A stretch of 51,268 nucleotides of DNA, taken from the IMG/VR virus record IMGVR_UViG_3300022864_000005, positions 1-51,268 of that record; one strand, written 5' to 3'. Both the position numbers and the translations under genes were made by a program. Shown here in pieces: positions 12,843-18,831 of this stretch. The stretch's first letter is position 1. Each line of letters begins with the position of its first letter. The notes below the pieces were generated by a model. It did not search any database. It worked only from the letters and a program-made list of their open reading frames with translations, and was not told where the DNA came from. This DNA is from a virus.

Positions 12843-13769
12843 TTAAGCGTTCACGGCGGCCTGATACTCAACCGCATCACCCTCTAATTTCCCGGCGATC
12901 TTCCTGAGCGTTTTCGACAAGGCAATCATTTTCTTGTCGCAGCCCTTATCGGCATCCAACAGTCGCTTGCTATGACCGTTTCCATTGGGTGAGCTGTCAT
13001 AATCATTGGCAACATTCATCAGCTTCCCAAAGATACCCTTAGTGTTCTTGAGCGTCCAGGGTTTCCCGTTATACTCGCAGATTACGTGCTTGTTCTCTGC
13101 TTCCACTTCCTTTTTCTGCTCTTTTATGAGCTTCCCCAGCCTGTTATTTCTCGACTGAAAAACCTCATTCCGGTAAGCATTCACGACCGCGATCTGCTTG
13201 TTGGCGTTCCCGCCAGCGTCAAGGGCTTTCCCGGCGGCCTTGATAGGATCAACCCCGTCAGTGGTAAAACACTCGGCAATATGCCGGGCTACCATCTTGG
13301 AGATTTCCCCGTCATTGACCAATTTCTTGACCATGCCAGGCAGTTCCGTGATCGGCAGATCAGACTGTAAGGATTTCACGGATTTTCCCAGCTTGCTCGC
13401 AACGTACCCGACAGAGGCGCCAGCGTCTATACATCTGGACGCCAGGGTAATTTCTTCCATCGGCTTCATGGGCAAACCCAGATTGCTCGAAAGAGCGTCA
13501 AGGTTCCTGTCCACGTCGTTCCGGTATCCAACCACAAAACATGGAATTTCTGGGATACCAGCCCTTACCGCAGCCGGAAACCGATGATTTCCCTTGACGA
13601 CTTTAAACATACCGTCTTCCTGAGCCTCAACCGTTATAGCCTCATCAGGTTTAAAACCTTCAGATTTCATGCTGATTGTAAGCGACTCAATATGGGCCTC
13701 ATCAGTGTTTTCCCGTGGTTGATACGTAGGATCTACCGTGATTTTCCCGGTCTCTATTATCTGTAACAT
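12843..13769 (-). CDS. ParB-like protein
   Basis: 308 residues from ATG 13769 with a purine-rich SD; the longer frame to 13886 has none. The N-terminal ParB/sulfiredoxin-fold domain shows DPTYQPREN, then VVKGNHRFPAAVRAGIPEIPC with the conserved GxHR box. A helix-turn-helix-like region follows (YVASKLGKSVKSLQSDL), then a basic C-terminus. Such phage ParB proteins bind DNA for partition or act as regulators or nucleases; no ParA is visible. First large gene of the leftward operon. Confidence 0.8.
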   Translation of the reverse strand: MLQIIETGKITVDPTYQPRENTDEAHIESLTISMKSEGFKPDEAITVEAQEDGMFKVVKGNHRFPAAVRAGIPEIPCFVVGYRNDVDRNLDALSSNLGLPMKPMEEITLASRCIDAGASVGYVASKLGKSVKSLQSDLPITELPGMVKKLVNDGEISKMVARHIAECFTTDGVDPIKAAGKALDAGGNANKQIAVVNAYRNEVFQSRNNRLGKLIKEQKKEVEAENKHVICEYNGKPWTLKNTKGIFGKLMNVANDYDSSPNGNGHSKRLLDADKGCDKKMIALSKTLRKIAGKLEGDAVEYQAAVNA

Positions 13770-13890
13770 ATTCCGTCCCTCCCTTTGCGTTTTGGGAGCT
13801 ACGAAAGGAATTGCAGATTTCCCGCAACCCCCAGGTTTTCCCGCTATTGTAAGCAGGGTGAAAGGCAAGGAAAGGTAAAGTAGCAAAAGC

Positions 13891-15208: not shown

Positions 15209-15390
15209 ATCGACAATGTAATTGTCGATATCAAGATTGTCGATAATGAAATAATGCACAATGTTAATATCGACATTGCTATAATCGACATTGTTAATAT
15301 CGACAATCGCACAATGCACAATAACATTATGTATATTAGTATGATAGCATTACACACAATAGTATTGTCGATATTAAGATTGTCGACAAT
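15209..15390. promoter_or_regulatory. Array of eight ATTGTCGAT boxes (operators or iterons)
   Basis: Nine-bp boxes ATTGTCGAT or the reverse complement (one-base variants) start at 15209, 15221, 15236, 15269, 15284, 15299, 15364 and 15379. Starts are 15 bp apart within the groups 221-236, 269-284-299 and 364-379; the first two form the palindrome ATCGACAATgtaATTGTCGAT. Two AATGCACAAT repeats lie between groups. Position between divergent transcripts suggests operators of the lytic/lysogenic switch; the 15-bp direct phasing also fits replication iterons. Confidence 0.8.
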
Positions 15391-15526
15391 ATCAAGACGG
15401 ACGGAAAGTCAAAAGACAAGACTCTCTTGTCTCTCTCTTTTGTCTCTCTCTTTTGTCCTCTCAATTCATATAGTCTTGAAAGTCTCTTTTGAGTCAATTT
15501 ATTTTTATAATAATGAAAAAAAAGGC

Positions 15527-15555
15527 TTGACAGGTATTAAATAAGATGTTATCTT
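15527..15555 (+). promoter_or_regulatory. Sigma70-type promoter
   Basis: TTGACA (15527-15532), 17-bp spacer, TATCTT (15550-15555); predicted start near 15562. It drives the structured leader and the small gene at 15696. Confidence 0.6.
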
Positions 15556-15559
15556 TCTA

Positions 15560-15682
15560 TTGACACGGAGAGATAAATTGAAAAACCGGACAACAAAAAA
15601 CCAAAGTCTTGACTTGAGAAGACGGGAAAGAGTCTCCGGACTCCTCTCCGTGTCAACGTCTCTTGAGTCAAGACTTTTTTTT
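15560..15682 (+). promoter_or_regulatory. Leader with terminator hairpin and possible pseudoknot
   Basis: A stem of about 20 bp (15603-15624 with 15657-15677, a few mismatches) is followed by eight T and the SD GAGAGGAG. Inside is GAGTCtccgGACTC. The 5' end of the RNA (TTGACACGGAGAG, 15560-15572) is perfectly complementary to 15644-15656, which abuts the 3' arm of the terminator. The two pairings cross, forming an H-type pseudoknot or a switch. CTCCTCTC at 15641-15648 also complements the SD. Confidence 0.6.
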
Positions 15683-15695
15683 GAGAGGAGAAGCT

Positions 15696-15818
15696 ATGAC
15701 AATCCAAGAATTTGTAAAATTGACAGGGTTGAAAATTCGTAAGCCGATTAATAAAACAGAGTTTCAGTTTCCGGAGGTGGTTATTGAAAAAGGAAAAAAA
15801 GAGGTGGTTATTAAATAG
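15696..15818 (+). CDS. Small protein behind structured leader
   Basis: 40 residues, SD GAGAGGAG. TIQEFVKLTGLKIRKPI resembles the start of a helix-turn-helix; the C-terminus is short beta-like (FPEVVIEKGKKEVVIK). Codon use here is ordinary compared with the surrounding GAC-rich DNA. Function unknown. Confidence 0.5.
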   Translation: MTIQEFVKLTGLKIRKPINKTEFQFPEVVIEKGKKEVVIK

Positions 15819-15952
15819 GACGGAGACGGAGAAAGAGACGGACGAATAAATAAGATACATCATTATAAAGAGAGGAGAGGAGTCAAGACGGACGGAGAGT
15901 CCATCACGGACACGGAGACACGGACGAATAAGACACGGAGAGGAGAAAAATA

Positions 15953-17230
15953 ATGGAACTATCTCAAGAGACGTACGAAAAAGCAATCGGAGAAGTCTCG
16001 GACTCAATAGGTTACACGGAGAGACTTTCAAGCCCTGTAATCTCTTTAATCGAGAGGAGTAGGGACGGAGAGGACGGACTACCGGCCACAAAAGAGGACT
16101 TGAGACGTTATCTTTTAGCCTGTAAAAGACACGACAACGTCCGAGTCCATCAAACAAGAGAGGAGTCTTTATACAATAAGGACGGAGAGGAGAGACAAAT
16201 TGACTCTCTCCGAGAGACGGAGTCCGGAGAGTCAAAATACTATTTTGAGAAGTTTATAAAAAGTCTCTTTCTCAAGAAAGACAAGTTTTTATGTTCGGCT
16301 TATTTTGTCTCCGGACTTTCAACCCATAAAATTTTAAGACTCGGACTTATGAAAGAAAGTCAAAAGACTATTTATCGGAGACTTCGTTTTATAGCAGATG
16401 AATATGGACGTTTTCTCTCGGAGAGAGGGCTTGAGACAAAAGACTTGAGACAAGATGGACTTTGGACGGATGTTGTGGACTCCGGACGGACGTATTTTAG
16501 ACACAGAGACGGAGAGGACTTGTCTCCAAATATCAATCCTCTCAAGAGATATAGGCGGACAAAAGAGGAGAAAGACTTGATAAAGTTTAGAGAGGAGTCA
16601 AGACTTTCAAGAGAGAGACACCTAAAAAAGATGGACACGGACGGACACGGAGTCTCTTGTCCTCTCGGAGAGGACGGACGGAGAGACTTGAAAGAGATAG
16701 AGAAAGTCAAGAGTCCAGAGACTTCTCTCTTTACAAAGTCCGGACGTTGTTTAATCCCTCTCGGAAAGACGGAGAAAGAGGACGGAAAGAAAGCAAAAGA
16801 GTCTCTTTCCGATATACGAAGACTTCAAAGTCTTGAGTCCGCATACTTAGGAAAGAGAACGGACTCTTGTCTTGATATGGACAAGTCTCTCTCTGGAGTC
16901 CGGATATACGAGACGTTCATTACTCCAGAGAAAGAGAGGACGTTTACCGGTTTCAAGAAAGACAAGACTCCGTTTAAAGTCCATACAGGTATAGTCTCTC
17001 CAGAGACTATTGAAACTGCTCCTCTCGGAAAGACGGACGGACTCAAGAGACAAAGACAATATCTCGCTATCAAGTCTCAAGAGAAAGAGGAGAAAGACGG
17101 AGAGGACACGGACACGGAGAAAGTCAAGAGGACGGACGGAAAGACACGGACACGAAAGACTCGGACGGACTCCGGACGGACTACCATCTTGAGAAAGAGA
17201 AGAGAGTCACTAATCCATGTAACCATGTAA
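15953..17230 (+). CDS. 425-aa basic protein with extreme codon bias; possible DNA-binding initiator or regulator
   Basis: SD GGAGAGGAG precedes ATG 15953. Composition is dominated by R, K, E, D, S, T, L and G. Residues about 120-150 (LSTHKILRLGLMKESQKTIY then RRLRFIADEYGRFL) look like a helix-turn-helix; the C-terminal 70 residues are low-complexity and strongly basic (TRTRKTRTDSGRT). Asp is almost always GAC and Gly almost always GGA, unlike all neighbours. By position (first large rightward gene after the box array) it could be a replication initiator carrying its origin inside the gene, or an activator. No family recognised. Confidence 0.6.
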   Translation: MELSQETYEKAIGEVSDSIGYTERLSSPVISLIERSRDGEDGLPATKEDLRRYLLACKRHDNVRVHQTREESLYNKDGEERQIDSLRETESGESKYYFEKFIKSLFLKKDKFLCSAYFVSGLSTHKILRLGLMKESQKTIYRRLRFIADEYGRFLSERGLETKDLRQDGLWTDVVDSGRTYFRHRDGEDLSPNINPLKRYRRTKEEKDLIKFREESRLSRERHLKKMDTDGHGVSCPLGEDGRRDLKEIEKVKSPETSLFTKSGRCLIPLGKTEKEDGKKAKESLSDIRRLQSLESAYLGKRTDSCLDMDKSLSGVRIYETFITPEKERTFTGFKKDKTPFKVHTGIVSPETIETAPLGKTDGLKRQRQYLAIKSQEKEEKDGEDTDTEKVKRTDGKTRTRKTRTDSGRTTILRKRRESLIHVTM

Positions 17231-17246
17231 CCATCTAACCATCTAA
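17215..17246 (+). repeat. 8-bp tandem repeat, four units
   Basis: CCATGTAA twice, then CCATCTAA twice, spanning the stop codon of the 425-aa gene. Probably slipped-strand expansion. Confidence 0.8.
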
Positions 17247-17251
17247 TCAAG

Positions 17252-17285
17252 AGGACTCTTGTCAAAAGACTTGAGTCCTTTTGCT
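17252..17285 (+). terminator. Intrinsic terminator after the 425-aa gene
   Basis: AGGACTC (17252-17258) pairs with GAGTCCT (17273-17279) and runs into TTTTGCTTT. It closes the transcript that starts at 15562. Confidence 0.65.
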
Positions 17286-17518
17286 TTATACTCTCTAATC
17301 TCTTGAGAGACACGGAGAGAGACACGAATAAGAAAGAGAGAGGAAAGGACGGAGACTCGGACGGACAAGACGGACGTGGTGGACTCGGAGACTCGGACTC
17401 CTGGACTCCTGGACTCGGACGAAAGAGAGAGGAGAGGACGGACTCAAGTCAAGAGTCAAGACAAGACACGGAGTCAAGAGAGGAGAGAGGACAAGAGGAG
17501 AGGAGAGACTATCACCAG

Positions 17519-17568
17519 GCTTGGGATATACGCTTGGGATATACATGGGATATACGCTTGGGATATAC
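17519..17568 (+). repeat. 13-bp tandem repeat
   Basis: GCTTGGGATATAC occurs at 17519, 17532 and 17556, with an 11-bp shortened unit (ATGGGATATAC) at 17545. It marks the right edge of the GAC-rich island. Confidence 0.85.
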
Positions 17569-17595
17569 AAATAATTGGTGAGTCGCCATATCATA

Positions 17596-18727: not shown

Positions 18728-18831
18728 AACAGTATCCCATAAATCAATCTTTAAATTAATCCCCGAGTGGGCGGTATCCGCAAGGACCGCGGCGAATTAC
18801 TGTTCGCTGACACCACTCGGGGATTTTTCTA
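18728..18831 (+). promoter_or_regulatory. Structured leader: three-way-junction terminator-like element
   Basis: A 13-bp perfect outer stem (18758-18770 with 18813-18825) encloses two adjacent 5-bp hairpins (18771-18775/18786-18790 and 18792-18796/18803-18807), then TTTTT and the SD GGGAGG of the next gene. The transcript's 5' part AACAGTA (18728-18734) is complementary to TACTGTT (18798-18804) in the loop of the second hairpin. Topology matches the element at 690-756 with no sequence identity. Confidence 0.65.

Follow-up and report, generated by a model that had tools for sequence, protein, structure and literature searches.

A 14-base leader segment that can pair with the 5' end of its own transcript or with a downstream ribosome-binding site suggests a self-regulating RNA switch in a phage

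The leader upstream of a 425-amino-acid phage gene carries a 14-base segment (positions 15641 to 15654, CTCCTCTCCGTGTC) that can pair with the 5' end of its own predicted transcript or with the ribosome-binding site of that gene, which suggests a self-regulating RNA switch. The window analyzed is the whole virus record, 51,268 bases, and the leader and its genes lie on the plus strand. Our preferred reading, held tentatively and at somewhat short of even confidence, is that the leader is an autoregulatory attenuator of a phage operon with an antisense segment that acts in cis and in trans. Established here are the sequences and complementarities, how rare these are under the null models, and the predicted energies given below.

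Promoter, terminator, and crossing helix

A consensus scan located a sigma-70-like promoter with 10 of 12 matches, TTGACA (15527) and TATCTT (15555) separated by 17 bases, with a TG before the -10 element (extended -10). Its position predicts a transcription start near 15562. No further plus-strand promoter-like site turned up in the scan ahead of the two genes, which start at 15696 and 15953, and the promoter lies about 120 bases upstream of the end of a strong terminator that is directly followed by the genes. The terminator stem, put at about 20 bp in the first-pass annotation, was found to comprise 21 bp (15603 to 15624 with 15657 to 15677; -27.9 kcal/mol) with one bulged A and eight T after it, the 3' arm and U8 tract together occupying 15657 to 15682. 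A small hairpin, GAGTC-TCCG-GACTC (15630 to 15643; -6.4 kcal/mol), stands between the two arms. This intrinsic terminator is situated, as in an attenuator, between the promoter at 15527 and the open reading frames from 15696 onward, the first of which encodes 40 amino acids (ATG at 15696; 15683 to 15818 with its Shine-Dalgarno sequence GAGAGGAG at 15683 to 15690). The 425-amino-acid frame follows at 15953 to 17230, with a terminator-like hairpin after it at 17252 to 17289.

The terminator stem is crossed by a second helix, as the first-pass annotation had proposed. The sequence and coordinates of this helix were borne out: TTGACACGGAGAG (15560 to 15572) is the exact reverse complement of 15644 to 15656, and the helix abuts the terminator, whose 3' arm begins at 15657, right after 15656. 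Its placement at the 5' end of the transcript also stood, but the full 13 bp in the RNA did not, because a start near 15562 would probably leave a helix of about 11 bp. The annotation had further paired CTCCTCTC (15641 to 15648) with the Shine-Dalgarno sequence of the 40-amino-acid frame. The positions are right, but the 8-bp match is not significant and is weak on its own, because 12 to 25% of random leader/ribosome-binding-site pairs reach 8 (Markov order 2 to 5, the region's vocabulary). The observation of crossing helices, terminator, and promoter is confirmed, and the earlier interpretation of it is partly supported.

In riboswitch-type attenuators, a promoter-proximal terminator competes with an earlier helix, and the leader may resemble them in setting its promoter-proximal terminator against an earlier 5' helix. 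The suggestion that the leader is a switch fits to the extent that a terminator between promoter and genes, together with an alternative 5' helix, makes a conditional leader. A metabolite riboswitch is without support, as an Rfam search of the leader gave no match and no riboswitch of a known class. The leader differs from riboswitch-type attenuators in having no ligand domain or Rfam match and also in that its competing helix shares no bases with the terminator, so that at most topology would keep the two from forming together.

The 5' arm of the crossing helix also contains an SD-like sequence, CGGAGAG, five bases before a TTG at 15578 that may open a candidate 54-amino-acid leader frame (15578 to 15742). 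A ribosome translating this frame would cover the 5' arm of the terminator and let polymerase pass, and the 5' helix would hide the Shine-Dalgarno sequence and favor termination. The position of the SD-like sequence and the fact that the frame spans the terminator before ending at 15742 are consistent with such leader-peptide attenuation. However, the start codon is TTG, the frame is short in a region that is rich in open frames, and it has no homologue for coding comparison; we regard this explanation as improbable.

Predicted folding of the growing transcript

Transcripts that end at or before 15674 can form the 5' helix alone (-33 to -36 kcal/mol). When the U tract has been made, the two structures are of near-equal energy, with the terminator at -38.0 kcal/mol versus -35.6 kcal/mol for the 5' helix, a difference of 2.4. 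Ensemble folding by length, a series of nested equilibrium models, gave 0.97 for the terminator at 15682, 0.68 to 1.0 for the 5' helix at 15700 to 15850, and 0.70 to 1.0 for the helix with the ribosome-binding site from 15950 on. The predicted order as the transcript grows is thus 5' helix, terminator, 5' helix, and ribosome-binding-site helix. Overall, the leader folds only 1.4 to 1.6 SD better than order 2 to 4 Markov sequence of the region.

Because the 5' helix and the terminator have no bases in common, a pseudoknot that contains both, as well as the small hairpin, is possible. Its loops, one of 30 nt and one of 19 nt that holds the hairpin, are long enough. A rough estimate, in which sterics are left out and loop entropy enters as a single constant, puts the pseudoknot at -52 kcal/mol versus -38 with only the terminator formed and -35.6 with only the 5' helix. 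The leader might form such a pseudoknot stably, with both helices (about 33 bp) present together, and it would then serve as a protein-binding site or protect a putative stable short RNA. These points speak for a stable pseudoknot, but the energy that favors it is that rough estimate, and we consider this reading more unlikely still than leader-peptide attenuation.

Pairing with the ribosome-binding site in word-biased DNA

A full list of inverted matches, with no limit on distance, yielded a second pairing, which is absent from the first-pass annotation: 15641 to 15654 can pair over 14 bp, without a mismatch, with 15932 to 15945 (GACACGGAGAGGAG). This is the strongest pairing of the segment, and the putative target holds the Shine-Dalgarno sequence of the 425-amino-acid gene, seven bases upstream of its ATG. 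Among the 84 open reading frames with SD-like sites in the whole record, the ribosome-binding site of this gene paired best with the leader segment, at -35.5 kcal/mol versus -25.8 for the next, in a ranking that favors genes within the biased region. CTCTCCGTGTC has one copy in the 51 kb, and its complement is found at the 5' end, at the ribosome-binding site, and at 17309. A target-like copy lies upstream of the antisense segment, GACACGGAGAG being present at both 15562 and 15932. The leader also matches 15874, 16182, 16219, and 17309 over 11 to 12 bases, and 15656 to 15667 matches the first codons of the 425-amino-acid gene (15963 to 15974) over 12 bp, which may be a product of chance.

The DNA from 15380 to 17560 (2.2 kb) has a very restricted vocabulary that is alike in coding and noncoding DNA. 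GACGGA occurs 30 times versus 0.4 expected from the rest of the record, AGAGGA occurs 26 times versus 0.7 expected, and GAGTC and GACTC occur 19 times each. The bias consists of dispersed words (GACGGA, AGAGGA, GAGTC/GACTC, and GAGAC), not tandem repeats. Such extreme bias makes complementarity cheap, and because the sense DNA is word biased and GA rich, any CT-rich segment matches many places; matches must therefore be judged against that vocabulary. In simulations with Markov order 2 to 4, at least one inverted repeat of length 13 or longer, spanning no more than 250 bp, arose somewhere in the 2.2-kb region in 15 to 45% of cases but in a given 145-base stretch in only 0.25 to 0.75%, and two inverted repeats of 12 or more in one 145-base stretch arose in 0.1% or less. 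Compared with random 30-mers drawn from the region's antisense vocabulary (orders 2 to 6), the 13 bp with the 5' end had a P of 0 to 0.003, and the 14 bp with the ribosome-binding site, a post hoc match that is one among several possible partners, had a P of 0 to 0.014.

One possibility is that the leader is a plain promoter-proximal attenuator or a stand-alone short RNA, with a real promoter and terminator, and that the crossing helix and the ribosome-binding-site match are by-products of the restricted vocabulary. The extreme word bias of the region argues for this, as does the regionwide count of inverted matches of at least 13, whatever their distance, with 1.8 to 2.8 expected (order 3 to 4) versus 6 found. 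However, the local probability of each match is about 1% or less, and both matches fall on functional places, the 5' end and the ribosome-binding site. We treat the by-product explanation as a serious possibility, though not a probable one.

For the autoregulatory attenuator that we prefer, the following sequence of events is proposed. Transcription would start near 15562, and the nascent 5' end would pair with 15644 to 15654 once that stretch is made. The terminator arm would emerge next and, either by itself or together with the 5' helix in a pseudoknot, halt some of the transcripts at the U tract, so that termination would release a leader RNA about 120 nt long. In read-through transcripts, 15641 to 15654 could give up its pairing with the 5' end and mask the 425-amino-acid gene's ribosome-binding site over 14 bp, and the released short RNA could cover the same site in trans. 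The 5' arm, which bears the target's GACACGGAGAG, would act as a decoy. We infer the transcription start, termination, switching, and repression, and the mechanism as a whole is plausible. It is doubtful, though conceivable, that the leader represents a new regulatory type in phages: one segment would move from the 5' end of its RNA (the decoy) to the main gene's ribosome-binding site, attenuation and translational repression would be joined in one molecule, and termination would be followed by action in trans, all in DNA of highly restricted vocabulary.

Comparison with c4 and relatives of the operon

The leader possibly works like c4, the antisense RNA of the immI operon in phages P1 and P7 (Rfam RF01695; c4-a1b1; c4-2, RF02944). 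In that system a target-like copy (a1b1) lies upstream of c4, and the layout here, with a putative 5' decoy, an antisense segment, a terminator, and the target ribosome-binding site in turn, resembles that of c4, icd, and ant of P1. c4 is, and the leader RNA would be, a short antisense RNA that lies within the phage operon of its target, presumably the same operon here, and pairs at the ribosome-binding site (for c4, PMC5320573, PMC8198154, and PMC12197685). c4 is a 77-nt three-stem RNA that is cut by RNase P and has two loops, a' and b' (PMC5320573), which cover the ribosome-binding site in part (PMC5320573, PMC12197685); in P1, c4, icd, and ant1/2 are in one operon (PMC8198154). In contrast to this three-stem fold with two loops, the leader has one 14-base segment beside a terminator stem. 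It is not a c4 RNA, and c4 covariance models gave no match in 15450 to 15960, even at an E value of 5. If the proposal is true, a simple attenuator would take the place of the c4 fold in a c4-like self-antisense circuit, and the case would show how self-antisense circuits can arise from repeated short words.

Elsewhere in the record, a c4-2 RNA match with a terminator-like end is found at 18758 to 18827 (RF02944; E value, 1.2e-7), ahead of an HNH endonuclease gene. Among the ribosome-binding sites of the record, none stood out clearly as its target. The match is genuine, and therefore c4-type regulation may be in use in the same phage.

The 40- and 425-amino-acid frames appear to form one operon with the leader, just upstream of the packaging genes. 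The 40-amino-acid frame had no family match and the 425-amino-acid frame no significant one, and the AlphaFold model of the larger protein (pLDDT of 34.5) was not usable. The 425-amino-acid frame is nevertheless probably a real gene, because its 3' end is conserved in one contig (L002) with 86% protein identity, indels in multiples of three, and the terminator-like hairpin retained after the gene, and because a second contig (L068) encodes a distant relative in DNA of quite different composition. Substitutions by codon position were 8/3/12. Both contigs are from phages with related terminases.

No homologues of the leader or the 425-amino-acid gene were found in phages or plasmids, a protein search of viral contigs and a search of genomes gave none, and a search with the exact helix pattern gave no homologous leader. 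Terminase relatives comprised 61 loci, mostly breaking off near this region, from which only the 3' end in L002 and the distant protein relative in L068 were recovered; neither contig shows a comparable leader. DnaN, small-terminase-neighbor, and ParB queries yielded no further leader, and searching genomes for the terminase turned up a single short MAG contig. No relative was found that covers the leader and could show covariation.

L002 carries the vocabulary of 15380 to 17560 too, and L068 is without it and has its own milder word bias (GCGCT, TCAATC, AAGGTT). Repeat-rich stretches are found near or upstream of the packaging genes, where many contigs stop, in several other terminase relatives (L005, 600 to 1050; L006, 1 to 350; L026, 1 to 3000; L058, 3000 to 4500). 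They contain GTAAACAG iterons, 20-bp tandem repeats, and pentapeptide-like repeats. We do not claim a word-biased stretch at this place in every relative, as those of the relatives are partly tandem and pentapeptide-like repeats.

Upstream of the promoter, between leftward and rightward genes, TCGACAAT/ATTGTCGA iterons are clustered at 15210 to 15395, some direct and some inverted, and this cluster is a candidate centromere or origin. A ParB-like gene is located at 12843 to 13886. Just past the word-biased region, at 17530 to 17570, there is a short repeat, TTGGGATATACGC/TGGGATATACA.
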